The translations under genes and the position numbers were made by a program. A stretch of DNA of 64,000 bases, taken from positions 99,750 to 163,749 of the forward strand of contig MCFE01000117.1 in assembly GCA_002104905.1 (NCBI GenBank), in the 5' to 3' direction. This DNA is from Basidiobolus meristosporus CBS 931.73 (taxonomy: Eukaryota; Basidiobolomycota; Basidiobolomycetes; Basidiobolales; Basidiobolaceae). Positions 8,751 through 64,000 of this stretch are shown here, in pieces (the stretch's first letter is position 1; every line of letters starts with the position of its first letter). A model generated the notes under the pieces. The model ran no database searches and was not told the origin of the DNA. It saw only the letters and a list, made by a program, of their open reading frames with translations.

Positions 8751-9175
8751 TTTTGTGAAAATTTGCAATTTCACCTAAATGTTCATCTAACTTAGTCACT
8801 TAGATTATTACCCACAAATATTAGAGAATACTGACCAAATTCCTTGTTGGGATTTACTTGGGATATTTCTCACCAAAAGATCATTCCCTTCAAATACTAG
8901 AGAATACTGACCAAATTCCTTGTTGGGATTTACTTAGAATATTCTCACCAAAATACCAGGTACCCAGAACATGAAAATTCTGAAAGTATTCCAAACAGCC
9001 CCAAACTTTGCACACATGTTCTTGGGACCTTTCTAATCCTATTCTTTGTGCTTGCTATGCCAAGGCCGTGTAAAAGTATAAACATTCCTTATATATGCAA
9101 TAAATGATTAAGCAAAAGCCACATAATTTACTTGTTCTCCAAATCACTTCCAATATCTCTAAGACTCTTACAACA
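8751..9175 (+). repeat. Copia solo LTR with 5-bp target-site duplication
   Basis: LTR related to that at 114-461 and ending ACAACA. It is flanked by TTATA on both sides (8746-8750 and 9176-9180), the 5-bp duplication expected for Copia insertion. It is longer than the others because about 60 bp are tandemly duplicated: the segment around 8818-8878 recurs at 8898-8957. It sits inside an older Copia RNase H sequence, making a nested insertion that later recombined to a solo LTR. Confidence 0.85.
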
Positions 9176-9180
9176 TTATA

Positions 9181-9399
9181 GATACTATGAGTAATTAGAT
9201 TCAAATCCAACTTTTCATGCTAGAACTAAGCACATAGATATTAGACACCATTTCATACATGTAGCTATACAGAATAACTTAGCAAAGTTGGTTTACTGCT
9301 CTATAGATGAAATGATTGCAGCCACATTTACCAAACCATTGGTGAGTGACAAATTTGATCATCTTAGGTCACAGTTAGGACTAGTCAGTATGAACATTT
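9181..9399 (+). pseudogene. Copia pol C-terminus (RNase H tail)
   Basis: The frame reads NPTFHARTKHIDIRHHFIHV, then ATFTKPLVSDKFDHLRSQLG and ends LVSMNI with TAG at 9397-9399. RTKHIDIRxHF and TKPL are hallmark motifs of the Copia RNase H end. Upstream, a stop at about 9196 and the solo-LTR insertion interrupt it. A purine-rich tract (agtgggag) lies directly before the next LTR, as expected for the polypurine primer. Confidence 0.85.
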
Positions 9400-9984
9400 A
9401 GTTTAGTGGGAGTGTTGCAAACATTTGTAATTCCACCTAAATATTCACCTAACTTGGTCACTTAGATCATTACCTACAAATATTAGAGAATACTGACCAA
9501 ATTCCTTGTTGGGATTTACTTGGGATATTTTCACCAAAACATCAGGTACCCAGAGCATAAAAATTCTCAAAGCGGTCCAAACAGCCCCAAACTTTGCAAA
9601 CATGTTCTTGGGCCCTTTCTAAACAGATTTCATTTGTTCTTCATGCCAAGGCCATGTAAAAGTATAAACACTACTTTGACATCATGTAATAGCGGTATTT
9701 ATACTTTTTACTTGGTCTTGGCAAAACAAAATGTGGAATGTGTTTAGGAAGGTCCCGAGAACATGCGTTCAAGGTTTAGGACTGTTTGGACAACTTGGAA
9801 TATTTTCACCAAAACATCAGATACCCAAAACATGAAAATTCCCAAAGTGCATCCCAACAAGGAAGCTTGGCAGTATTCTCTAAGATTTGTAGGCAATGAT
9901 CTAAGTGACCAAGTTTGGTGAATATTTAGGTGGAATTACGAATTTTTACAACACTCCCACTCAGCTAAATGTTCATACTGACTA
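9381..9984. repeat. head-to-head Copia 3' ends forming a ~600-bp palindrome
   Basis: The left arm (9381-9680) contains the last pol codons (VSMNI), the polypurine tract and an LTR fragment starting at 9413. The right arm (9686-9984) contains the same order on the minus strand, with the LTR start at 9953. The arms meet at about 9681-9685. Both LTR fragments break at the same internal place. Within the right arm, about 9796-9859 (aatattttcaccaaaacatc and beyond) is again in plus orientation, a small inversion nested in the inverted arm. Confidence 0.8.
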
Positions 9985-53157: not shown

Positions 53158-53340
53158 TGTTGTAAGTAATAAGCTGTTACCTAAATATTCATGCTAACTC
53201 AGTCACATAGATCTTTTTCTGTGATTAATATTTTGTCCTGACCAAATTTATTATCAGGATTTACTTATAATATCTTCACCCAATTATTCTTGTAAGAGTC
53301 TTGGAGATATTGGAAGCTATTGGGAGAACTGGTAGATATT
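53158..53340. repeat. rearranged Copia LTR fragments
   Basis: 53158-53282 is a diverged 5' part of the Copia LTR, starting TGTTGT. It is followed at about 53290-53315 by an LTR 3' end in inverted orientation (TTGTAAGAGTCTTGGAGAT), immediately left of the better-preserved LTR at 53342. This echoes the palindromic LTR arrangement at 9.4-10.0 kb. Confidence 0.7.
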
Positions 53341-53341
53341 G

Positions 53342-53674
53342 TGTTGTAAAAAATTTGTATTTCCACCTAAATATTCACCTAACTTAGTCACTTAGATCAT
53401 TACCTTCATATCCCAGAGAATACTGACCAAATTCCTTGTTGGGATTTACTTGGAATATTTACCCAGAACATGAAAATTAGATAGGTTGTCCAAACAGCCC
53501 CAAACTTTGCACACATGCTCTTGCAACCTTCCTTAATCTATTCTACATGCTTGTAATGCCAAGATCAGGTAAAAGTATAAACACTACTTTTACATTCAAT
53601 AAATCATTAAGTGAAAACCACCTAATCTGCATGTTCTCCTAATCACTTCCAATATCTCCAAGACTCTTACAACA
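53342..53674 (+). repeat. Copia-type 5' LTR (copy 2)
   Basis: 333 bp, TGTTGT...ACAACA, closely similar to 114-461 with small deletions. It is the 5' LTR of the gag-carrying element that follows. Confidence 0.9.
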
Positions 53675-53687
53675 GGCTATGAGCCCC
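53675..53687 (+). other. Copia primer-binding site (copy 2)
   Basis: GGCTATGAGCCCC right after the LTR, matching the half-tRNA iMet pattern of copy 1. Its internal ATG (53679) is the likely gag start codon. Confidence 0.5.
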
Positions 53688-54690
53688 AAGATGTTACTCT
53701 CTGCAATGTCTACTACTGCTATTACTGGAATTTTTCCTCTGCTGAAAAGTTGGATGGATCTAACTACCAAGTGTGGAAGGTCAAGATGAAGATGCTGCTA
53801 CAAGAAAGAGGCCTTTGGGATATTGTCATGGGAGAAGAATGCCCTCCTAAAAATGTGGGAGAGGAAGCCATAAAGTACCAGAAGAAAGAACAAAGTGCCT
53901 TTAACTGCATTTGCCTTAATGTCAAGGACAAATTGCTAATTCAATGCTCAAGAGCAAAAATGGCAAAGAATGCCTGGAGAGCATTAGAAGACACCTACCA
54001 GTCATGTTCAGCTGCCAAGAAAATGTATCTGAGACAAAAATTCTTTACTACAAAGATGCTGCCAGGAGAAGAAATGAAATATCTAATTAACAGAATTACC
54101 CTGCTGGTAGATGAGATGGAATCTGTGAGCGTACCAACTACTGATGAGGATGTGATAGTTACCGTCCTGAATAGCCTGACAGACAAGTTTCAGGGCCTTG
54201 TATCAGCCCTAGAGTCCAGAACTGAAGATTTGACCTTAAATTATGTACATGGAAGGCTCCTGGATGAAGAATTAAGAAAATCAAGTGCCAATAAGAAGGA
54301 AGAAGAGAATGCTTTAATAAGCAATGATAACCAGCAAAGGAGATACCCAAGACCCTACATAGGCAACAGTAACCTGTTTTGCAACAACTGCAAAAGGAAA
54401 GGACACACACCAGACCGGTGTCTCAAAAAGAAAGATAATCAGCAAAAGAAGCCTGAATATGGAAATGCTGCAACAACTGAAGATAGACTATTCATATCTG
54501 CACTAAATATGACCACAAACAAGGATTCTCAGACATGGTATATTGACTCTAGAGCATCTCATCACTTTACATGCCAAAAAGAACTTTTTACCCAATATCA
54601 AGAAATTCCAATTAAGAAGGTTTTTATGGGTGACAATAGAACACTTGATGCAGTTGGAGAAGGAACTATCCAAGTAAACCTTAGAAGCAG
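53679..54690 (+). pseudogene. Copia gag-protease, frameshifted and truncated
   Basis: ATG at 53679 reads MSPKMLLSAMSTTAITGIFP, then a 1-bp deletion (compared with copy 1) between about 53733 and 53745 shifts the frame; the remaining Gag runs open to the end. It includes the UBN2-type Gag core, the CCHC knuckle CNNCKRKGHTPDRC, and the protease start TWYIDSRASHHF, where the usual DSG is DSR. The element breaks off inside the protease at 54690, exactly where TTAGGG begins. Integrase, RT and the 3' LTR are missing. Confidence 0.88.
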
Positions 54691-54707
54691 TTAGGGGGGG
54701 ATGATAA

Positions 54708-54721
54708 TCACCACATGGTGA
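54708..54721 (-). other. LINE-type 3' UTR hairpin, copy 1
   Basis: TCACCA-CA-TGGTGA, a perfect 6-bp stem just inside the 3' terminus. A second inverted pair, CTTTATTT...AAATAAAG, lies beside it at 54725-54748. Confidence 0.8.
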
Positions 54722-54786
54722 AATCTTTATTTAAATCATAAATAAAGAAGCCAAATTTGAATATGAATAGTTGAGATGCAGAAAGC

Positions 54787-55587
54787 CTACAAAATAAACT
54801 TGGACTTTGCTGCATCCCAAATATCCTCAATATTGAAGTCTAGAGGAGAATGTAGCAAAACTGCTTGTTCACTGTAGTATTTCTTGAGGAAGTTTGTGAC
54901 TTGAAGGGAAGGAGAGTTTTTCAACAAGCTGGTAAACCTTTTGAGGAGTTCTTTTTCCAGAGAGAATGGTACAAAGAGTGGAATGTCCAAATGATGTCTG
55001 AATATATGCTCTGAGAGCTCCCAATCCAGCATACTTTTGACTTCTTCTGTAAAATCTTCAACATTATCTTTGTCAAGAATAACTTCCAAGAGATCCCTGG
55101 CAATGTACTGAATGTTAATAATCTTAGGCATATGAATACCTAGGTCCTTGAGGTAGTTTCTTTGTTATGAAATTGGGAGATAGCCAGCATTTCTGAAATA
55201 GCAAACAGCCCAATTGGCAGTGGGAGGAGTATCAGGGCTGACAGGGAATCTTCTTCTGGCTCTAGGGTGCACTGGCTTAGGTGACTGTCTTGTTGAAAGG
55301 GCAGCTGGCTTTGGATGGGCTTGAAGTGCTTGGGAGTATGTCTGAGTATGAATGGCAGGAGTTGCTGGTTGCTGACAGTGTTCAGATTGACTGGAAGAAG
55401 AGCTGGTTGAGGGGTTGCAAGGTAAGGAAGAAGCTGAAAGAGAAGTAGAGTGTGCTGGGTGAAGTTCAGAGAGAGTTTTGAAAAGAACCTGGATCTGGGA
55501 TTTCAACATAGAGTTTTCAGCCTCAAGAAGTGAAACTCTTTGTTCAAAGTAAGAAGTCTGTAAAGAGTGAAAGTTGGGTAAAGACAT
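54787..55587 (-). pseudogene. ORF1-like protein with one in-frame TAA
   Basis: From ATG 55587 (MSLPNFHSLQTSYFEQRVSL) a coiled coil is followed by a Ser/Pro-rich stretch and then by the C-terminal domain that resembles the end of LINE-B ORF1: LLEVILDKDNVEDF versus ILEVILDQNIADPF, and FNIEDIWDAAK versus FEELWDSAG. A single TAA (55165-55167) interrupts it after the conserved PIS; the frame is otherwise intact to the stop at 54787. The N-terminal Cys-rich ribbon of LINE-B ORF1 is absent. The TAA could be a recent null mutation or a leaky stop. Confidence 0.7.
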
Positions 55588-55688
55588 GGAAAAGTAGATA
55601 ATAAGAAGAAAGGAGTAGTTGGGGTGGTAGGGTGGAAAATAGTTAAGAAGAAAAGAGAGGAAAGATCTGAAATTGAAAATCTCAGAAT

Positions 55689-55700
55689 TTAGGGTTAGGG
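55689..55700 (+). repeat. two telomere-type TTAGGG units
   Basis: TTAGGGTTAGGG lies between the 5' end of the ORF1-only element and the 3' end of the SINE, with further G residues following. Confidence 0.8.
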
Positions 55701-55709
55701 GGAGGAAAG

Positions 55710-55723
55710 TCACCAAGTGGTGA
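55710..55723 (-). other. 3' UTR hairpin, copy 2 (SINE tail)
   Basis: TCACCA-AG-TGGTGA, same position relative to the end as in the LINE copies. Confidence 0.8.
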
Positions 55724-55779
55724 AATCTTTATTTACTTATGACAAGTATCTAAAGAAGGCAAGTTAATCTGAAGTTATT

Positions 55780-55898
55780 CCTAGAAAGCTAGGTCTGAGA
55801 GATATCTTCCTGGTAAGCCAGGTCTGAGAGTTGACAAGCAGAATGGTACTATATTTCCTAGTTAGCTAGGTCTGAGAGTTGTTTCCTGGAAAGCCAGG
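55780..55898 (-). repeat. four tandem hairpin units in the SINE body
   Basis: Units at 55780-55793, 55809-55822, 55857-55870 and 55885-55898 have stems CCTAG/CTAGG, CCTGG/CCAGG, CCTAG/CTAGG and CCTGG/CCAGG, each with a 4-nt loop ending AG and followed by a CTGAGA box. The alternation A-T to G-C occurs on both sides of the stem, so pairing is kept. Confidence 0.75.
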
Positions 55899-56154
55899 CC
55901 TGAGAAGTGAGAATCAGAATATATCTGAGCCAAGTTATACTGGTTTGCGGTAGCTGAATTGTGGCCGGAATGGCCAGTAGACTGGGGGAACTGAGAGGAA
56001 TTTCTGGGTGATCACTGGCCAAGTTTACTAGGCAAATCTGGCCAATTAGCATTTCAAGGATTTCAGCCAATCAGATCCTTTACTTTGCCCAATGGTTGAT
56101 CAAGCCATCTCCCAATGAGCACACATCAATTTATTGATCAAATTGTTGGATCCA

Positions 56155-56208
56155 GGATTTGAACCCACAACCATGGGTATGGAAGGGTTAGGGATAACCA
56201 CAAGGCTA
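56155..56208 (-). promoter_or_regulatory. internal Pol III promoter-like A and B boxes
   Basis: A-box-like 56208-56198 and B-box-like 56165-56155 within the SINE head. The B box has CAAA where tRNA genes usually have CGAN, a CpG loss. Confidence 0.65.
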
Positions 56209-56235
56209 AGTGTTCTTGGTTAGGGGGGGAGACAG

Positions 56236-56249
56236 TCACCAACAGGTGA
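56236..56249 (-). other. 3' UTR hairpin, copy 3 (LINE-B)
   Basis: TCACC-AACA-GGTGA, 5-bp stem at the same place as in the other copies. Confidence 0.75.
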
Positions 56250-56316
56250 AATCTTTATTTCAGTAGAAACAAAGAAGCCAGCGCTACTGTTGTAGCTTTG
56301 ATACAAGAGTGTGTAG

Positions 56317-59052
56317 CTAAGGGGAATTTGTAGGTAAGTTAATAAGAAGTGATGATAGTTCTTCAGTGCTCAAGACACTGTTCAGTGGGAAGGGAGGTAG
56401 CAAGAGAGGTAAGAATGACTTGTGAACAACATTAATGAGGGGAATGTGATAAGGATTGATATTCATCATAAAGGGAGTGTGCTGCTGCAGATATTGCTGC
56501 CAAAGGTCTGTCAAGTACTTCAGGTAGGCCAGCTTGGGTTTTTCTGACTGCAGAATATAGTGAGCACACTTCTTGACTTCAGGATCTCCAAGTATAGTTC
56601 TCCAGCAGGAGCCAGGTGTTGTGTGGTGTGTTCTCTTCCAGGCCTTAATCAGTGGGTTGTTGCAGTTGTGAAGTCTGAGGTATAATCTGGTTCTAAGGTA
56701 GAGAAGTCTGATCCTATAGGGCATAAACCCAAAAGCACCAAGAATGGCATGTCTGTAGGGGCATTCAGGCAAATGAGGCACCAAGGAGGTAATGCACCAT
56801 ACTGCAAACTTGTCAAGCTTAGTGCAGTCTCTAGAAGTAAGAGAGAGAAGTGGTAAGCCAAATTCCAGGACAGGGAAGACAAACTGCTTGAGTAGAAGGA
56901 GGCAGCTGGGAGCTGAAGTTGTAGGAGGAGTAACAGCCAGTAGCTTGTGGAGTGCCTGTCTTGCCAGGATAATTCTCTTCTTCAGGTGTGCTCCAGAGTC
57001 TAGTCCAGTAGGAAGGAAAGGAAAGCCAAGATATGTAGCAGAAACCTGAGCAGGTAGAGTGGAGTTCTCCAAGTTGATGGGAGAGCCCAAAGGTACTGTC
57101 TTTGCAATGGAAAGCTGGAGATTATTCTTCTGCAGATACTGGTGGATGGTCTGGGAGTCTTGTTGCACATTGGAGGAGGATATTCTGATGTCATCAGCAA
57201 AGAGAGTAACCAGGCAGTCAGCTGAGAGTCTTGGGAAATCATTCAGGAAGATGGCAAACAGTATAGGACCAAGCACAGAGCCTTGAACCACTCCATTAGG
57301 AACTGAGAACACAGCTGATTGCTCACTTGGGTGCAGAATTCTTGCTTGTGGATCCAGAAACAGAGACCTGACAAGGAGGGTGAGAGAGGTACTGGAGAAG
57401 CATTGCAACTTGGACCAAAGCAGATTTCTGTCAACTGAATCAAAGGCCTTAGTAATATCAAACAGAACAGAGGGATACTTGCACTGGAGAGAGTGATCTT
57501 GGCTAAGTATGACTGCATATTCCAAGGAGAGGCCAGGAACAAAGCCAAACTGTGCAGGATGAAACTTGAGGGAGTCAGAGTAGAGCTCCTGAGCAAGCAG
57601 AAGCTCAAACACCTTTCTGCAGGTGGGCAGCAGAGATATTGGCCTGTAGGAGCTAGGATCCAGGTGCTTTCCTTTACCCTTGTACAGTGGCAGAACATTT
57701 GCAAAGGACCATTCCTCAGGAGTAGAAAGCTGGGCTGAGCATTGCTGAAACAGTGGAAGCAGAAGTGCAGACATGGCCTTGGTACTAGTCTTCAGAAGCT
57801 CATAGGAGATTGTGTCCACACCTGGAGCAGTAGAGTTGGGAAGCCTCTTGAGCACATTATGGATTCTCCTTTGATCAAGTGCAAGTGGGATGGGCAGAGT
57901 CTTGAAGTCAGGATGAAAGCCAGGAGTTGAGTACTGCTTTGTAGAGAAGAAGATGTTAGCCAGCTGTTCTGTTGAAGGTAACTTCCTGGAAGAGGGCCTC
58001 ATTGCCCTGTAGAGTCTTGATACTGTTCTTGTTATAGAGTTGGAAGATTGCAGAGGCAAAGAACTCATAATATGATCCCAGAGCTGAGTATGCAGAGTGT
58101 GGTGAATTGCCTTGGAGTGGTGTATTGCTGTCAGGAGGAGTTTCTCTGTTTTTGGGTTAGGGAAACTCAGGTAGCTTTGTTGCAGGGCTGAAACAATGGA
58201 TTCCCATTTTCTTGAGGTAACAGCAGTAGTCTTGCATGGCAGTGAGAGGGAGGCAGACACCAGAATCAGATGCTTCACAAAGAGCCAGGCATAGTTGAGA
58301 TCATCTGGCAGAGAAAGTAGCAAACTGGCAAGCTTCAAGTAGTTCCCAAAGTCTTTCTTCTGATTCTTGGTAGCTTTGTGGGTGAGCACAGTAAGTTTTG
58401 GCAGCTTCTTCTTCACAACTGGTTGCATAGAAAGGGACCAGGCTGGGTGGTCAGAGGCTCTCAAGGATCCTAGCTCAGCTCCAGAGAATTGCTTAACTTC
58501 ATTCACAAAGTAGAGGGCAGCAGCAGAAGGGCAGATCCAGTCAACACATCTTTTCTCAGATTGAGCACCTAGTGCTAGCAGGTGGCTTTCTCTCAGGAAG
58601 TTCAGTAGGAATGTAGACCTTGGCTTCATTCTTGCAGTCAGAGTAGTCTTGTTCTCAGGATGGGGAATGTTGAGATCTCCAAGCAAGATAACAGGTGTTG
58701 ATATAGATTGTTGGTATTGCTGAACCTTCTGGCATATAACTTGCACTTCCTGAAGGGCAAGACTTGGAGGCAGATAGCAGAGCACCAGACTGATAGTTGG
58801 CAACTGGAGAGCAGCACAGTAAGGGGAGTAAAGAGGAACACAGAGCTGAGGAGTATTGATGGTAGAAGAGATGAAGCAGATAGAGGAGGTATTCTTTGTT
58901 CTAGGAGTAGAAAAGCAATATAGATTAGTCAAAAGTATAGAGGGTAGCTGGACATCAATCAAACACAGGAGGGAAAATCTTGAAAGAAGTCTCTCTAGAG
59001 TTGGTCTTGATGGCTGTATGCTGTTGCAGTTAAGCAACAGAACTTCAGGTAG
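56317..59052 (-). CDS. LINE-B ORF2: endonuclease-reverse transcriptase
   Basis: 911 codons read without interruption from directly after the ORF1 TGA to TAG at 56317-56319. APE-type endonuclease motifs: LNCNSI, LIDVQLP (Asp where APE nucleases have the catalytic Glu), GDLNIPH, CVDWI, and RASDH. RT motifs: NVLPLYKGKGKHLDPSSYRP, FDITKAFDSVDR (catalytic Asp), GVVQGSVLGPILFAIFLNDF and the palm FADD. No RNase H and no CCHC knuckle are seen at the C-terminus. There is no ATG in the first roughly 135 codons, so it is probably made only as an ORF1-ORF2 fusion. The RT clade is uncertain (Jockey/CR1-like in its QGSVLGP block). Confidence 0.9.
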   Translation of the reverse strand, partial: LPEVLLLNCNSIQPSRPTLERLLSRFSLLCLIDVQLPSILLTNLYCFSTPRTKNTSSICFISSTINTPQLCVPLYSPYCAALQLPTISLVLCYLPPSLALQEVQVICQKVQQYQQSISTPVILLGDLNIPHPENKTTLTARMKPRSTFLLNFLRESHLLALGAQSEKRCVDWICPSAAALYFVNEVKQFSGAELGSLRASDHPAWSLSMQPVVKKKLPKLTVLTHKATKNQKKDFGNYLKLASLLLSLPDDLNYAWLFVKHLILVSASLSLPCKTTAVTSRKWESIVSALQQSYLSFPNPKTEKLLLTAIHHSKAIHHTLHTQLWDHIMSSLPLQSSNSITRTVSRLYRAMRPSSRKLPSTEQLANIFFSTKQYSTPGFHPDFKTLPIPLALDQRRIHNVLKRLPNSTAPGVDTISYELLKTSTKAMSALLLPLFQQCSAQLSTPEEWSFANVLPLYKGKGKHLDPSSYRPISLLPTCRKVFELLLAQELYSDSLKFHPAQFGFVPGLSLEYAVILSQDHSLQCKYPSVLFDITKAFDSVDRNLLWSKLQCFSSTSLTLLVRSLFLDPQARILHPSEQSAVFSVPNGVVQGSVLGPILFAIFLNDFPRLSADCLVTLFADDIRISSSNVQQDSQTIHQYLQKNNLQLSIAKTVPLGSPINLENSTLPAQVSATYLGFPFLPTGLDSGAHLKKRIILARQALHKLLAVTPPTTSAPSCLLLLKQFVFPVLEFGLPLLSLTSRDCTKLDKFAVWCITSLVPHLPECPYRHAILGAFGFMPYRIRLLYLRTRLYLRLHNCNNPLIKAWKRTHHTTPGSCWRTILGDPEVKKCAHYILQSEKPKLAYLKYLTDLWQQYLQQHTPFMMNINPYHIPLINVVHKSFLPLLLPPFPLNSVLSTEELSSLLINLPTNSP

Positions 59053-59058
59053 TCAGGC
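59050..59058 (-). promoter_or_regulatory. candidate stop-codon readthrough site (GCC TGA CTA)
   Basis: ORF1 ends in TGA at 59055-59053, followed in the same frame by CTA and ORF2. UGA CUA is a known leaky stop context. The identical nine bases occur at the same place in LINE-A (63846-63838). Confidence 0.65.
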
Positions 59059-60561
59059 AGAGGTTGTAGCTTCTTCAGAGGCAGCATTGACAATGTGACC
59101 TGCAGAGTCCCAGAGCTCTTCAAATGGTGCATCACTTAAGTCAGCAAGGAGGGAAATGGCATGATTCTTGAGGAAGTATGCCACATCATAGGAGGGGGCT
59201 TGTCTCTTGATGGCAGCAAAGAAAGACAGAATGGCAACATGGGCTGGAGGCTTGTTGAACAGTAGAGAGTCAGAGGATTCAGATTCTTCAGGCACTATCT
59301 TGAAGTCAGTTTTCAGCCAGTTAAGGTTCTTCTCCACAAAGGCAACAAATGGGTCAGCAATGTTTTGGTCTAGGATAACCTCCAGAATCTTCCCTTTTCT
59401 CCAGGCCAGGTTGACAATTCTTGAGAGCTGAATATTGCATGCCTTGAGTGCTTTCCTGATGTTGGAAATGGGAGTCCAGGGAACTTGCTTCAAGTACACC
59501 ACAGTCCAGGTAGAAGCTGGTGGTAGGTTTGCTGGGGGCTTGTAAGTCCTTCTGTGTTGCAATGGAGCTGCAGTAGTCAGATTGGAGTCCACATTCTCAG
59601 TAGAAGGTTTTCTTGATGTGTCTTGCTGAATAGTACTGGAGCTGGATGTGCTGATAATTCTTGCTAGAACCTTGCCTGCATAAGTCTGAGGTATAGCTGA
59701 GGTGACTGTAGAGGTGGTGGCAGCTGGTGCAGGTGGAGAGGCAGAGACTGAAGCAGGAACTGAGGTCACCTGGGAGAAGGCAGTAGAAGCAGGTTTTCTG
59801 GGAGGAACAGAGTTCACTATCCAGTTGTTCTGTAAAACACTGGAGTAGCTTTTCTGTGGAACAGGATCTTGCTCTTGAACAGGAACAGAAGCAGGAGGCT
59901 GGGGCTGAGCAGTAGTGGTAAGGCAGTGGCACTCCAAGGAAGCTTTTTGCAAGGCATCTCTGGCAGTTTTCAGGGCAGTATTGGCTTCATTCTTGAGCTT
60001 CTTGCATTGGGCATCCAGTCTCTTGTTTTCAATAGCCAGGGCAGTATTGGCAGCCTCTAAATCAGCAATTCTCTTCTCAATTGCAAGGAATCTCTGAAGA
60101 AATGCATCAGTAGAAGTGCTGGCATCTGGGAGAGCAGTGGCAGGAATAGAGTCCATTGACAGTGGGCTTCTTGGAGGCAAGGAAAGTGGACTGGCAGATT
60201 CAGGCACAAAAGGAGATATCCTGGCAGGAGGAGAAGGAGTATCCAAGGCAGTAACAGAGGCAATTCTTGTTGGTGAAGCAGCAGCAGGGGAGGCAAGCCT
60301 GTTCAGAAACTGGGCAGGAGAGAGTGCTTGAGGAGAGGGAGTCTTCAGCTTGCCAAGCATGTCTTCCATCAGAGTGATACCAATATTCCTGGTGCATTTG
60401 CAGAGAAAAGTAAGCTTCCTGAGTCTGCCAGCTCTTCCATTCCTTCTGATAGTTCCTTTGTTTCCACAGTTGGGGCAAGAAATCTTCTTGACAGACTTGT
60501 CAAAGCAATCAAGAACCTTCCTTTCAGGTGTAGTGGGCTCCTGTTGAGGTTTTGGTGGCAT
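59053..60561 (-). CDS. LINE-B ORF1 nucleic-acid-binding protein
   Basis: 502 codons from ATG 60561 (MPPKPQQEPTTPERKVLDCF). Near residues 29-56 is a Cys-rich ribbon, CPNCGNKGTIRRNGRAGR ending CKC, reminiscent of transposase zinc ribbons. Next come a Pro/Ser-rich linker, a coiled coil (EKRIADLEAANTALAIENKR), another long Ser/Thr/Pro-rich region, and a conserved C-terminal domain (ILEVILDQNIADPFVAF ... YDVAYFLKNHAISLLADLSD) shared with LINE-A ORF1 and the ORF1-only element. It likely packages the element RNA. An upstream open extension to 60588 lacks an ATG. Confidence 0.85.
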   Translation of the reverse strand: MPPKPQQEPTTPERKVLDCFDKSVKKISCPNCGNKGTIRRNGRAGRLRKLTFLCKCTRNIGITLMEDMLGKLKTPSPQALSPAQFLNRLASPAAASPTRIASVTALDTPSPPARISPFVPESASPLSLPPRSPLSMDSIPATALPDASTSTDAFLQRFLAIEKRIADLEAANTALAIENKRLDAQCKKLKNEANTALKTARDALQKASLECHCLTTTAQPQPPASVPVQEQDPVPQKSYSSVLQNNWIVNSVPPRKPASTAFSQVTSVPASVSASPPAPAATTSTVTSAIPQTYAGKVLARIISTSSSSTIQQDTSRKPSTENVDSNLTTAAPLQHRRTYKPPANLPPASTWTVVYLKQVPWTPISNIRKALKACNIQLSRIVNLAWRKGKILEVILDQNIADPFVAFVEKNLNWLKTDFKIVPEESESSDSLLFNKPPAHVAILSFFAAIKRQAPSYDVAYFLKNHAISLLADLSDAPFEELWDSAGHIVNAASEEATTSA

Positions 60562-60630
60562 ATCCAGAGTTTCAGCTTCAAATTTCAATTTTTGAGATTT
60601 TTGGGTGATTTTTGATGGGCGGGATCAAAA

Positions 60631-60644
60631 TTAGGGTTAGGGTT
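60631..60644 (+). repeat. telomere-type repeat at LINE-B 5' side
   Basis: TTAGGGTTAGGGTT directly to the right of the LINE-B 5' end. Confidence 0.85.
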
Positions 60645-60796
60645 GCGCGCTGTGACTGCTTTTTACGATCGCAAGGTCAGATCCTAGGAAAAAATAAAAA
60701 TAGTTAGTAAAGGTGATTTAATGGATGGATGGATGGATTCGGAGTCAGATTCAATCAAAAAATCAAATCGTTGACTAATTTAAAGAGGATAGATAG
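60645..60796. other. CpG-containing spacer, possible LINE 5' UTR
   Basis: About 150 bp with several CpG (gcgcgc, acgatcgc, attcgg, aatcgt), in contrast with the CpG-free DNA to its left, and a short (ATGG)n run at 60720-60737. It is either the 5' UTR/promoter of LINE-B beyond an internal TTAGGG pair, or a separate small piece. Confidence 0.4.
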
Positions 60797-60902
60797 TTAG
60801 GAGAAGGTGAGAAGTCATCAATGTGATGAATCTATTACTTATGATCAAGTATCTAAAGAAGCATGTTAATCTGAAGTAATTTAGAAAGTAGGTTGAGAGA
60901 TC
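60797..60902 (-). mobile_element. 5'-truncated SINE 3' fragment
   Basis: Matches the SINE tail at 55689-55798: the same order of hairpin, atcaagtatctaaagaag-like box, ttaatctgaagt box and one unit of the tandem hairpin (ttagaaagtaggttgagag). It lies head-to-tail with LINE-A. Its left end reads TTAGGAG. Confidence 0.75.
60815..60829 (-). other. 3' UTR hairpin, copy 4 with compensatory changes
   Basis: TCATCA-ATG-TGATGA. Both sides of the stem differ from TCACCA/TGGTGA at the paired position, so pairing is kept. Confidence 0.8.
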
Positions 60903-60917
60903 TTAGGGGAGGGAAAG

Positions 60918-60932
60918 TCACCAAGTTGGTGA
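60918..60932 (-). other. 3' UTR hairpin, copy 5 (LINE-A)
   Basis: TCACCAA-G-TTGGTGA, a perfect 7-bp stem. Confidence 0.8.
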
Positions 60933-60990
60933 AATCTTTATTTGGGTTAAGAACTAATCTAAGTACAAATAAAGAAGCCAATTAAGAGGT

Positions 60991-63840
60991 CTAGAACCTC
61001 TCTAATAAGTAATCTAATTTATGTTTTGTTTCATCTCTAATGTTTGTTTCAATAAAGTAAAGCTCATCAGGGGTAAATATAAAATTCAGGGGTTTTGGGG
61101 GAAGTACAAATTGTAGATGTTTCTGATCAATATAATCCAAGACTGGAACCCAGCCTGGGATTAGGTGTAGTAGGAAAGGTGTGTGGACTTGTAAGTAGCT
61201 CTGCCACATAGATCTTAGATGGTCCTGAGCCAGTAGTCTTGGTTTCTCAGCTTTTTGAAGTTTTGAAGCAAGCTCTGTTACTACAGCAGAGCCAACCAGG
61301 GTGTGCCAGCAAGAAGATTTCAGGGAGGAGTTAGATTGAAGCCATAGTTTGATGGAGGGGTTATGTGATTTCTGAAGTTTGACTAGGAAGGAAGCCCGGA
61401 GATAGATCATTCGGATTTGGTATGGGTAGAACCCAAAGGCTCCATTAGTTGCATGGATATAGGGAGATACTGGAAGATAAGGTACCAAGGATCTGATACA
61501 CTGATGGAGAAATTTATCCAGGCGGTGAAGTTCTCTGGAGGTTAGGGGTATAATGTGGAGACCAAATTCAAGTACTGGCAGCACATACTGCTTCAGAAGT
61601 ATAGGGATCTTTTGAATTGGAGTGTCTGGAGTGACTACTACCAGAAGCTTTTTGAGAGCCTGTTGGGCAAGACGGATCCTATTATTCAGGTGGAGCTTTG
61701 AGTCAATCCCATGTTGACAAAATGGCAGACCTAGATATATTGCAGTTTGTTGTGGCAGAATGCTAGTGTTCTGTATAGTTGTAGTGCATCCAATTGGGAC
61801 TGTCTTGGAAATTGAGAGTGAGAGGTTGTTGGCAGCCAAGTACTTCTCAATGATGGCAGTGTCTGCTATGGGATTAGGAGTAGCAATCTTGATATCATCC
61901 GCATAGAGAGTTAGTAGTGGATAGGGAGAGTCTGGTGAGGGGCCTTTTGGAAATAAAGGAAAGTCATGTAGGAATATCACAAATAGTAAGGGACCTAGTA
62001 CAGATCCTTGGACTACTCCATTTGGAACCTCATAAGTCTCTGATGTGCAACTTGGATGCAAAATTTTGGCTGAGTTCTCACAAAATAGAGAACGTACAAG
62101 AAGGGTCATTGGTAGTGTGGTAACTGCTAATAGCTTTCTCCAAAGCAGAGCTCTGTCCACAGAGTCAAAGGCTTTAGTAATGTCAAACAGAATGGTTGGC
62201 AATGAGAATTGAAGTGAATGATCATGGCTTAGCACTACAGCCATATCCAAGGAGAGTTTGGGCAAGAAGCCAAACTGAGAAGGATGGAATGGATATAGTT
62301 GAGATTGCAAGGATCTTGCTATCATAAGCTCAAAGATTTTCCGGCAGGTTGGTAGGAGTGAAACTGGCCGGTAAGAACCTGGGAGTGAGTGTTTCCCCTT
62401 CCCTTTGTATAAGGGTATTACATTTGCCTGTGACCAGGCCTTTGGGGTAGTCAATTGTTGGGCACAGATAGAGTAGAATGGGAGAAGTAAGTGACTCATT
62501 TTGGAGTAGCACACCCGGAGTAGATCGTAGGTAATCAAGTCATGTCCAGGTGCAGTATTTGCAGGAAGCTTCTTTAAAATTTTCTCCAGAAGCTTTGCTG
62601 AAACCACAATTGGAGATGTTGGACTGGTGGATATGTTACCAGTATGGTAGAAAGGAGGAGTGGGATGCATGGTTGAATCAAAGAATATAGGGGCCAGTTT
62701 GTCTGGTGATGGTATACTCCTTGCTTGGGGTCTCATGGCTTTGTATACTCTTGATATGGACCTTGTGGTGGCATTCATATTTACTAAGGGCAAGGTATCC
62801 ATGATATGAGCCCATAATCTAGTATGCTCAGTGATCTGTAGTGACTTGGAGTAGGAGATTGCGCTTTCCAGGAGGTTCTGTGTTTTTGGGTTAGGGAAAC
62901 ATAGGTAGCTGGAATTTAAGGCAGAAATGATGGATTTCCATTTAAGTTGGTTTGCAGATGGCTTTTGGTAGGACTTGGTGGGCAGGGCCAGACAGCCAGT
63001 GATTATGATGAAATGCTGGTAAAATAGCCATAATGCATTTATATCATCACAAATCCATGCAGGTAAGCTGGGAAATGCATATTCTGTAAGCAAGGATAGG
63101 TAGTTGGCAAAGTCCTGTGTCTGTGATACTGAAGCTTTGGCTGGCAGGATTGTAAACGGCTGAAGAAGGGTGCCAATTGGTAGGGTTTTTCTGGCAGAAA
63201 TGATAATATGTATTGGCTTGTGATCAGATTTCTCTAGTGAACCACAGCTGATATCCTCTGGAATGCTTGTAACCTGGTGGATGTACTGTAAGGCAGCTGG
63301 AGTAGCTGTTACCCAGTCAACACAACGTTGAGCTTGCTGAGTGTTTACAGTGACCAGATGATTTTGTCGGAGGAACTTTTTAAAGTGCTCCTCTCGGGTT
63401 CTAAGTCTGGATGAAATAGTGGTGATATTTTCAGGGTGGGGGATATTTATATCTCCCACTACCATACAAGGGATTGATGAGCTGTTGATGAATTCTGATG
63501 TGGCCAAGAAAATTGCCAGTGTTATGGAGTTAGACAGAGATGGAGGGAGATAGATAATAATGGCTACTATAGTTGGAAGTGTTAGAGCATAGCAGTAATA
63601 CTCATAGATGATGGATACATTTGCTGAGGGTGCAAGCTTAGAAGATGAAAGAGCAACAAGTGCCATTGAGTGAGCTGGAAATTTTGGGTGAGCAGATGAA
63701 TATGCATTCAGTCTAGAGGGAAGTTTTGGCAACTTAACATCAATTAGTAGGAGCAAGGAATATTCCTTTTTCAGTAAGTTTTCTAATTCAGCTACAGTTG
63801 GAGTGATGGAGTTGCAATTGAGTAAGAGTATGTTCTGTAG
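60991..63840 (-). CDS. LINE-A ORF2: endonuclease-reverse transcriptase
   Basis: 949 codons open from the codon after TGA (LQNILLLNCNSI) to the stop at 60991. Endonuclease motifs: LNCNSI, LIDVKLP (Asp in place of Glu, as in LINE-B), GDINIPH, CVDWV, SDHKPI. RT motifs: VIPLYKGKGKHSLPGSYRPV, FDITKAFDSVDR, GVVQGSVLGPLLFVIFLHDF and YADD. The first ATG lies about 57 codons in, inside the endonuclease domain and after its catalytic LIDV motif, so independent initiation would give a dead nuclease. It is a little longer than LINE-B ORF2. Confidence 0.9.
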   Translation of the reverse strand, partial: LQNILLLNCNSITPTVAELENLLKKEYSLLLLIDVKLPKLPSRLNAYSSAHPKFPAHSMALVALSSSKLAPSANVSIIYEYYCYALTLPTIVAIIIYLPPSLSNSITLAIFLATSEFINSSSIPCMVVGDINIPHPENITTISSRLRTREEHFKKFLRQNHLVTVNTQQAQRCVDWVTATPAALQYIHQVTSIPEDISCGSLEKSDHKPIHIIISARKTLPIGTLLQPFTILPAKASVSQTQDFANYLSLLTEYAFPSLPAWICDDINALWLFYQHFIIITGCLALPTKSYQKPSANQLKWKSIISALNSSYLCFPNPKTQNLLESAISYSKSLQITEHTRLWAHIMDTLPLVNMNATTRSISRVYKAMRPQARSIPSPDKLAPIFFDSTMHPTPPFYHTGNISTSPTSPIVVSAKLLEKILKKLPANTAPGHDLITYDLLRVCYSKMSHLLLPFYSICAQQLTTPKAWSQANVIPLYKGKGKHSLPGSYRPVSLLPTCRKIFELMIARSLQSQLYPFHPSQFGFLPKLSLDMAVVLSHDHSLQFSLPTILFDITKAFDSVDRALLWRKLLAVTTLPMTLLVRSLFCENSAKILHPSCTSETYEVPNGVVQGSVLGPLLFVIFLHDFPLFPKGPSPDSPYPLLTLYADDIKIATPNPIADTAIIEKYLAANNLSLSISKTVPIGCTTTIQNTSILPQQTAIYLGLPFCQHGIDSKLHLNNRIRLAQQALKKLLVVVTPDTPIQKIPILLKQYVLPVLEFGLHIIPLTSRELHRLDKFLHQCIRSLVPYLPVSPYIHATNGAFGFYPYQIRMIYLRASFLVKLQKSHNPSIKLWLQSNSSLKSSCWHTLVGSAVVTELASKLQKAEKPRLLAQDHLRSMWQSYLQVHTPFLLHLIPGWVPVLDYIDQKHLQFVLPPKPLNFIFTPDELYFIETNIRDETKHKLDYLLERF

Positions 63841-64000
63841 TCAGGCAGACTCTGAGGTTGCCTGTTCCTGCTGAAACTCTTGCACTGCCCTTTGTAAATT
63901 TCCAGAATTATTCCACAACTCTTCAAATGGAGCTTGCGTAATGTCTTTCAGGATTCTAATTGCTTCCTCTTTCAAGAAGTAGGCCCACATCATAGGTTGG
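63841..64000 (-). pseudogene. LINE-A ORF1, C-terminal end with a 1-bp insertion
   Basis: The last 50 or so codons of ORF1 (EEAIRILKDITQAPFEELWN, ending ATSESA and TGA 63843-63841). Compared with LINE-B (PSYDVAYFL), the sequence PTYDV is followed by an extra G in a run at 63984-63986, which throws PTYDV and AYFL into different frames. Most of ORF1 lies outside the window. Confidence 0.7.

Follow-up and report, generated by a model that had tools for sequence, protein, structure and literature searches.

TTAGGG junctions and telomere caps in head-to-tail arrays of LINE, SINE and gag-only elements of Basidiobolus meristosporus

Introduction

Retroelements that lie head to tail at a contig end, each starting with a telomere-type motif, raise the question of whether they are ordinary dispersed repeats or elements that attach themselves to chromosome ends. 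Such an array fills positions 54691-64000 of a 64,000-nt stretch of DNA (the window) from Basidiobolus meristosporus CBS 931.73, a source indicated by a protein match of 100%. The window forms the right end of contig C191 (163,749 nt) in the 89.0-Mb assembly; its last base is the contig end and lies inside an element. Basidiobolus, a gut fungus, is reported to have numerous small chromosomes, from about 60 to many hundreds (PMC3281927), and therefore many ends.

Results

Layout of the array

The array consists of four retroelements and one old fragment, all on the minus strand.

53460..54690, plus strand: gag/pol start of a copia-type retrotransposon (start approximate), truncated at 54690 and abutting the array directly; Retrotran_gag_2 3e-39, Pol_BBD 1.5e-13
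54691..55688, minus strand: gag-only element, also termed ORF1-only, with an ORF1-like frame; its 3' end lies at 54691
55689..55694, plus strand: single TTAGGG telomere unit that separates the gag-only element from the SINE
55695..56219, minus strand: SINE of 525 nt, tRNA-like by the box-B-like GGTTCAAATCC at 56155-56165
56220..60796, minus strand: LINE-A, 3' end at 56220, with ORF2, ORF1 and a 5' UTR to ~60789; RVT_1 2.6e-25
56220..56290, minus strand: LINE-A 3' terminal RNA element, hairpins followed by a C-run and a CCCTAA tail
56317..59052, minus strand: LINE-A ORF2, a 911-aa stop-to-stop frame in which APE-type endonuclease motifs precede the reverse transcriptase (FADD)
59053..60561, minus strand: LINE-A ORF1 (P0177), 502 aa; the motifs CPNC and CKC lie close to the start
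60631..60642, minus strand: (CCCTAA)2 within the LINE-A 5' UTR, inside a stretch aligned in 40 long matches
60686..60789, minus strand: unit of 104 nt at the 5' terminus of LINE-A, present in tandem in many copies; C370, for example, repeats query 287-390
60797..60902, minus strand: old truncated SINE 3' end of 106 nt
60903..64000, minus strand: LINE-B, running to the contig end, with ORF2 at 60991-63840; RVT_1 1.6e-20
54691-54760, 55689-55760 and 60903-60975, minus strand: equivalents of the LINE-A 3' terminal RNA element

A sequence-only reading had named seven positions with telomere-type sequence, and it is present at all seven: TTAGGGGGGG at 54691 and 56220, TTAGGGTTAGGG at 55689 and 60631, TTAGGGGG at 55695, TTAGGAG at 60797 and TTAGGGG at 60903. 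Its five consecutive minus-strand segments were likewise borne out, as gag-only element, SINE, LINE-A, old SINE fragment and LINE-B. It had also placed the units at 55689 and 60631 at the 5' ends of two elements, and here the sequence stands but the placement does not. At 55689 two neighbouring elements are separated by a second telomere unit, at a boundary that recurs in L014, and the unit at 60631 is inside a LINE-A 5' UTR that continues to ~60789, ending in the 104-nt unit. As a bare hexamer TTAGGG shows no enrichment (22 observed in the window against 28.9 expected), so the case rests on its placement at element 3' ends. The G-skew is 0.19-0.34 inside the elements and 0.025 across the remaining window. 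Copia copies elsewhere are truncated at other points, where they are joined to a SINE (L004, L030) or capped by telomere repeats (L097).

The LINE proteins

The RVT_1 reverse transcriptase and the occurrence of 5'-truncated copies identify the LINEs as non-LTR elements, and the best solved-structure match is LINE-1 ORF2p (5.9e-13). The endonuclease match of LINE-A to Exo_endo_phos_2 is weak (3.5e-4; 20.9 bits, under the 27.4 cut-off); among eight proteins, five match this domain and four match Exo_endo_phos. In the aligned proteins that cover them, GDxN and SDH are kept in 7/7 and CVDW in 6/7. Motif II, where the residue is usually Glu, has Asp in the four proteins covering that position. A motif search of both ORF2s found no signs of a restriction-like endonuclease, neither its CCHC-like motif nor RHD/RHN. 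The ORF2s of LINE-A and LINE-B share 48% amino acid identity, and over the whole ORF they differ at 0.64 of third and 0.30 of second codon positions; dN/dS is saturated, and the value obtained, 0.28, is for the linker only. LINE-A ORF1 weakly matches DivIC (E 0.0014, below cut-off), perhaps through a coiled coil. Seven relatives of this ORF1 were found, one of them from Basidiobolus ranarum, and a search of viral contigs gave no relatives of ORF2.

The SINE and gag-only elements

The SINE carries a 76-nt internal duplication (55778-55920) and a single box-B-like motif where 0.04 is expected. Neither ARAGORN nor Rfam called a tRNA in its head, and a tRNA origin is therefore only likely. The gag-only element holds no frame of reverse transcriptase size among the open reading frames of 54691-55688, and in the window copy a TAA at 55165-55167 interrupts the ORF1-like frame. 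Both open pieces resemble LINE-A ORF1, one over residues 279-366 (E 7e-6) and the other over 369-487 (E 6e-11). The 5' boundary of the element is identical in L014; it is thus an ORF1-bearing telomeric element without reverse transcriptase, as HeT-A is. A second gag-only family, seen in L003, is open across at least 206 aa.

A common 3' end

The window elements end alike, in hairpins, a C-run and CCTAA/CCCTAA, and the part of the interpretation by which the SINE and the ORF1-only element carry the 3' tail of the LINE is supported. The four families fold alike at this end, with z-scores of -4.0 (LINE-A), -2.4 (gag-only), -4.1 (SINE) and -4.9 (LINE-B); that of the old SINE fragment is just -0.4. 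In the old fragment one hairpin pair is preserved through a C-G to U-A change. Pairing holds in 25/25 cells of the alignment, although covariation is weak, as four of the five pairs are invariant and the sole compensatory change was reached by 115 of 500 shuffles. The LINEs and the SINE thus have the common 3' stem-loop of a stringent-type pair, which a LINE protein would recognise; the SINE and gag-only elements presumably use LINE proteins, and the element RNAs would end in CCCUAA.

Placement and orientation in the genome

A pattern for the hairpin 3' end matched 1224 times forward and 107 times in reverse, and the reversed-pattern control gave none on either strand. With TTAGG 2-16 nt upstream there were 1181 forward and 80 reverse matches, tandem units being counted twice. 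Among the first 100 3' ends listed, taken in contig order from 30 contigs, TTAGG stands at this distance in 87, where ~0.012 per start (~1%) is expected, and 13 lack it by the pattern used. All 100 are within 20 kb of a contig end, but 68 are in contigs that themselves measure 17-20 kb, where the figure says nothing about terminal location, and only the other 32 were used. These lie in 11 contigs of >100 kb, and 32/32 are within 18.4 kb of the end toward which the element's 5' side points; for 29 of them the distance is under 10 kb. The expectation of head-to-tail elements at chromosome ends with the 5' side telomere-ward is supported for this set, and copies deep inside, many of which would have spoken against it, number 0/32. 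In contig C726 one copy points away from the nearer contig end.

The bias in strand follows that of the telomeres, as (TTAGGG)4 occurs 7428 times forward and 81 times in reverse. The 5' region of LINE-A is on the plus strand in 40/40 scored long matches, and the SINE/LINE-A boundary is 39 plus to 1 minus, unlike the 40 best-scored copia matches, which divide 22 plus to 18 minus and include interior copies (e.g. C91:50150 of 168834). This boundary is present in 30/30 loci, the window being one of them and all chosen by a query that spans it. Two loci, L089 and L094, have 478 nt in common at 98%.

Telomere caps and junctions

TTAGGG arrays terminate 13 of the 18 right ends fetched, nine of them directly on elements or copia. 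The caps sit on intact SINE 5' ends (C21, C52, C77; the 5' boundary is that of the window SINE), on cut LINE-A (C36, C40, C47, C62), on a cut SINE (C65) and on cut copia (C58). The other four arrays (C22, C23, C25, C45), and likewise that of C114, are on sequence that, up to the array, is not labelled as window elements; in C22 and C25 the flanking sequence is the second gag-only family. Five of the 18 ends have no telomere, and three of these stop inside LINE-A. We estimate that the assembly contains ~290 telomere arrays, of which some may represent the same end. A telomerase RNA-binding domain is encoded at C880.

Nineteen of 20 terminal arrays measure 137-243 nt, mostly 25-40 units, lengths that may be limited by the assembly. 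Between elements the tracts are short: 72 of 74 junctions carry one to five telomere units (one in 51, two in 12, three in 6, four in 1, five in 2) and two carry none, and G-runs range from 2 to 10. At L025 a 3'-end piece of ~35 nt is flanked by two telomere arrays. The elements therefore live as telomeric retrotransposons of the MoTeR/FoTeR kind do, at telomeres, with the 5' end facing the chromosome end and TTAGGG at their junctions.

Discussion

How the elements reach the ends

We consider it very probable that the array is subtelomeric and belongs to a LINE clan specific to telomeres, comprising LINE-A, LINE-B, gag-only elements and a tRNA-like SINE with a common 3' structure. Most likely its members attach by priming from the chromosome terminus. 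LINE proteins would bind the hairpins common to all the element RNAs, while the telomeric G-strand (...TTAGGG) would pair with the C-run/CCCUAA tail and its 3'-OH would prime reverse transcription toward the chromosome end. Every event would add one element with its 5' side end-ward, telomerase would re-cap this with TTAGGG repeats by the tens, and cap loss followed by a further event would leave one to five units between elements. Speaking against this account are the 13 of 100 listed 3' ends without TTAGG, the two junctions without a unit, the arrays on sequence not labelled as window elements, and the copy in C726. The shortness of these tracts against the 25-40 units usual at live ends favours attachment at nearly bare ends.

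The primer may instead be supplied by a nick, since most endonuclease motifs are kept in the LINE and a cut in the telomere repeats, as made by SART/TRAS elements, fits too. Endonuclease-nicked insertion within duplex repeats, in the manner of SART1/TRAS1, with short tracts arising because the innermost repeats are preferred or because tracts contract later, is possible, if not what we would expect; it agrees with terminus priming on telomere targeting and differs in the primer only. The motif and domain matches above speak for it, as do reports that SART1Bm cleaves inside (TTAGG)n (PMC7265360) and that MoTeR tracts tend to break once they exceed three repeats (PMC7367193). SART1Bm, however, requires a minimum of three repeats and left the first and second unused (PMC7265360). 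Random nicking would leave long tracts, so the short junctions count against it: 0/74 exceed five units, though the terminal arrays are long. The Asp at motif II, in place of the usual Glu, also counts against it. Recombination or break-induced replication between ends, with transposition rare, as in much of the change seen in MoTeR arrays, would account for the SINE to LINE-A boundary in all the query-selected loci and for the sequence common to L089 and L094, and arrays may multiply in this way. As the main source of the arrays it is unlikely, as element orders and truncation points are diverse, the next element starts at TAGGG/TTAGGG in 72/74 junctions, G-runs vary, and the identical 3' tail of the families is left unexplained.

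We regard as improbable that arrays form in one go by template jumping, the reverse transcriptase running off the 5' end of one RNA onto the 3' end of another and copying TTAGG from the tail. Intact SINE 5' ends do meet the next element through about one unit at several loci (e.g. TTCTTGG-TTAGGGGGG), but a telomere-capped SINE shows the same first unit, so telomere addition explains it too, and tracts of two to five units also occur. That dispersed repeats merely gather at contig ends by breaking the assembly is very hard to credit. The five ends without a telomere, three of them within LINE-A, would fit, but the 5' side faces the nearby end in 32/32 listed copies in contigs of >100 kb, 13/18 right ends have telomere arrays, and copia has no strand bias; an assembly artefact was rejected on the caps and the copia control.

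A bolder reading, less likely than not, is that two LINEs, two gag-only families and a SINE, with one common RNA tail that pairs with the telomere, form a retroelement ecosystem that is reverse-transcribed directly onto eroded or broken ends, a second end-healing system in a fungus that keeps telomerase. If so, the points at which copia and other elements are cut and joined to a new element by one or a partial repeat would be scars of healing.

Significance

The Basidiobolus clan is a new case of mobile DNA helping to build chromosome ends; we found no prior report of these elements in the open-licence PMC literature. The telomere-located elements mentioned in one paper are assigned there to four LINE clades, CRE, L1-like, R1 and Jockey (PMC10088271), and the term SINE is absent from its main text. 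A SINE and gag-only elements sharing the LINEs' telomere-repeat tail would show a complete guild specialising on ends, far from insects and ascomycetes, and Basidiobolus would be a system in which to examine whether a nick or the terminus provides the primer, and how far the elements cooperate with telomerase.

Comparison with known systems

MoTeR elements of Magnaporthe oryzae have their 5' ends nearest the chromosome end and stand head to tail with (TTAGGG)n spacers of half a unit to >20; they also have telomere-like 5' tracts, a non-autonomous partner (MoTeR2) and truncated copies on the telomere (PMC7367193, PMC12857005). FoTeR of Fusarium oxysporum has upstream tandem repeats, and both belong to the CRE group with a C-terminal restriction-like endonuclease (PMC12857005). 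The Basidiobolus elements resemble them in their fungal telomeres, end-ward 5' sides, head-to-tail arrays, TTAGGG junctions, telomere-like 5' tracts, putative non-autonomous partners, truncated copies joined to telomere and, as in FoTeR, upstream tandem repeats, but have N-terminal APE-type motifs, a separate ORF1, and several families and a SINE under one 3' tail. Because of these endonuclease motifs and the ORF1 the LINE falls outside the MoTeR/FoTeR (CRE) lineage, a placement made on sequence features.

SART1 and TRAS1 have two ORFs and an APE endonuclease. These R1 elements of Bombyx mori are LINEs specific to telomere repeats, and the 3' junction of SART1 is poly(A) (PMC7265360). Telomere targeting is thus shared, whereas the Basidiobolus elements end in hairpins and C-run/CCCTAA. 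HeT-A, TART and TAHRE form head-to-tail arrays at chromosome ends, with a gag-only element beside those bearing reverse transcriptase, and the Basidiobolus ends are alike in both respects. Drosophila, however, has neither telomere repeats nor telomerase activity (PMC7265360), whereas Basidiobolus has TTAGGG caps and a telomerase RNA-binding domain, so that its elements do not stand in for an absent telomerase. In UnaL2 and ZfL2 the 3' tails of the LINE and its partner SINE are alike, and a stem-loop in them mediates recognition (PMC4176376). The Basidiobolus LINEs and SINE likewise have a common 3' stem-loop. The UnaL2 and ZfL2 tails end in another short repeat and are not telomere-specific, whereas in Basidiobolus the tail is the telomere repeat.

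Organisation of the array

The genome of Basidiobolus meristosporus CBS 931.73 was obtained by PacBio sequencing, as stated in a portion of PMC7466969, and the assembly comprises 89.0 Mb in 1311 contigs. A protein listed by NCBI under this strain (P0134) agrees with the assembly at 100% along its full 590 residues. The window is the terminal 64 kb of contig C191 (163,749 bases). A copia-type element ends at 54690 and is followed by five segments.

Segments following the copia-type element, in order
1st, minus strand: gag-only element
2nd, minus strand: SINE, 525 nt
3rd, minus strand: LINE-A, with ORF1 and ORF2
4th, minus strand: old SINE end, 106 nt
5th, minus strand: LINE-B, extending past the contig end

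The sequence-only reading had described successive minus-strand elements each opening with TTAGG on the plus strand, and the sequence bears this out for all five. TTAGGG motifs also lie within the SINE head (56188-56193) and the LINE-A 5' UTR (60631-60642), close to the respective 5' ends. Elsewhere, 114-462, 8753-9984 and 53290-53674 carry direct and inverted repeats common to distant parts of the window, which overlap the start of the copia element.

After TTAGG on the plus strand, the four main elements carry a TCACC-loop-GGTGA hairpin; the old SINE fragment has TCATC-loop-GATGA instead, in the same position, and its one pair-preserving change was equalled in 115 of 500 shuffles. The 3' 70 nt of the main elements form hairpins and then a C-rich tail that stays unpaired and closes with CCUAA or CCCUAA, with fold z-scores of -2.4 to -4.9 (-0.4 for the old fragment).

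Encoded proteins

LINE-A ORF2 matched reverse transcriptase in a profile search (2.6e-25), and also an endonuclease, under the curated cut-off. Among eight aligned proteins Exo_endo_phos_2 was found in five and Exo_endo_phos in four; GDxN and SDH were present in all seven proteins covering them and CVDW in six of seven. Glu is usual in motif II of such endonucleases, and the four proteins covering it have Asp there. No restriction-like CCHC or RHD/RHN motifs were found in ORF2 of LINE-A or LINE-B, which share 48% identity overall (60% in the reverse transcriptase, 40% in the endonuclease part). Seven relatives of ORF1 were found, one of them from Basidiobolus ranarum, and three of the seven are in records equal in length to records with ORF2 relatives. 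In the gag-only element, matches to LINE-A ORF1 flank an in-frame stop. Seven loci (L003, L015, L016, L028, L088, L090 and L127) carry a second family of gag-only elements, whose 3' end and hairpin are LINE-B-like.

Delimited copies of the second gag-only family
L003:2111-2862, open over 206 aa
L015:418-1040
L127:365-730, 5' part immediately inside a left-hand telomere

Placement in the genome

The 3' hairpin pattern matched the whole assembly 1224 times forward and 107 times in reverse (reversed-pattern control, 0). Among the first 100 places listed, which follow contig order and span 30 contigs (96 matches forward and 4 in reverse), TTAGG lay 2-16 nt upstream in 87 and was absent in 13; the expectation from the TTAGG density of the window itself is about 1%. 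A subtelomeric location was supported in the 11 contigs longer than 100 kb, where all 32 copies lay within 18.4 kb of the contig end faced by the element's 5' side (29 within 10 kb) and none deep inside; the other 68 places are in contigs of 17-20 kb, which are uninformative on distance. Copies in the same array are not independent, yet all 11 long contigs agree. The best 40 copia matches, used as a control, were 22 forward and 18 reverse, some plainly interior (C91:50150 of 168834; C80:130358 of 169371).

Beyond these 100 places, contig C726 has a SINE/LINE-A copy (L008, L033; C726:50000-60858) that points away from the nearer contig end, possibly an internalised or fused chromosome end. It lies near copia and an oppositely oriented SINE-like 3' end.

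The strand bias of the elements tracks that of the telomeres, since (TTAGGG)4 itself matched 7428 times forward and 81 in reverse (reversed controls, 0 and 13). Array starts without a preceding G numbered 108 forward and 3 reverse. The telomere matches lay at the right end of most contigs inspected; such a one-strand excess is unexpected under random contig orientation and is probably an assembler effect.

Caps and junctions

The final 700 nt were inspected in 18 of the contigs bearing forward copies in the 100-place list. TTAGGG arrays terminate 13 of these right ends, nine directly on SINE, LINE-A or copia.

Sequence on which the terminal array sits
Intact SINE 5' end: C21, C52, C77
LINE-A, cut at differing points: C36, C40, C47, C62
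Cut SINE: C65
Cut copia: C58
Second gag-only family: C22, C25
Unlabelled repeat: C23, C45

At nine caps that sit on copia or on cut elements, the cap overlaps by 0 to 4 nt with the way the element itself would continue. Of the five ends lacking an array, three break off within LINE-A (C3, C13, C69); the other two stop in sequence that carries no label. Seven more ends were added, five of which were chosen for holding arrays; arrays were then present at 20 of 25 ends, 19 measuring 137-243 nt and the remaining one 49 nt. A rough estimate gives about 290 arrays (7428 matches at a mean of 25.75 per array in these 20); small chromosomes in Basidiobolus number from about 60 to many hundreds, according to microscopy cited in an excerpt of PMC3281927.

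The capped repeat at the right ends of C23 and C45 (L089, L094) is unlike the window elements and internally directly repeated, the two copies being 98% alike over 478 nt; it is another subtelomeric family. An interstitial (CCCTAA)5 of 30 nt occurs in C35 (L124:742-771), with no window elements in the 2621 nt examined.

The loci examined, most of which were chosen with a query spanning the boundary of SINE and LINE-A, gave 74 distinct 3' junctions: 51 had one TTAGG-type unit, 12 two, six three, one four, two five and two none. The G-run behind TTA was 2 to 10 long, and 4 to 7 in 59 of 65. Across the assembly, at least two full TTAGGG units were matched 232 times forward and 21 in reverse, against 1331 3' ends, by a pattern that overlooks the longest G-runs. 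Telomere arrays flank an element end of some 35 nt in L025.

Proposed mechanism

As a whole, these observations are very probably best explained by a telomere-specific LINE clan, a judgement for which the placement evidence is the 32 places and not the 100. Given the orientation of the elements, the first cDNA strand would be the outward continuation of the telomeric G-strand; in the simplest reading, TTAGGG-3' would pair with the C-run/CCCUAA tail of the RNA and prime reverse transcription. Because caps are mostly 137-243 nt and buried tracts only 1-5 units, new elements would join at or near the telomere base.

The primer could instead come from an endonuclease nick within the telomere repeats, as in SART1, whose behaviour, in the section of PMC7265360 that treats it, provides a precedent; the endonuclease motifs kept in the ORF2 proteins fit such nicking, but the short buried tracts against the longer caps favour nearly bare ends, and we consider nicking rather less than an even prospect. 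Those tracts were possibly shortened afterwards by breakage-driven contraction, which is known for MoTeR from part of PMC7367193. Attachment to nearly bare ends is the reading favoured here. It does not look as if the elements replace telomerase, since a telomerase RNA-binding domain is encoded in the assembly (G000:C880:173109-173423), in two pieces, one with an internal TAG, perhaps owing to an intron.

Comparison with known elements

Pairs of LINEs and SINEs with a common 3' tail are already known, as one portion of PMC4176376 records. In the open-licence PMC literature searched, no report was found that combines a telomere-repeat tail, SINE-like partners and gag-only partners in an early-diverging fungus. 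MoTeR and FoTeR are similar in behaviour to the Basidiobolus elements but, according to the relevant parts of PMC7367193 and PMC12857005, group with CRE elements and have a restriction-like endonuclease.
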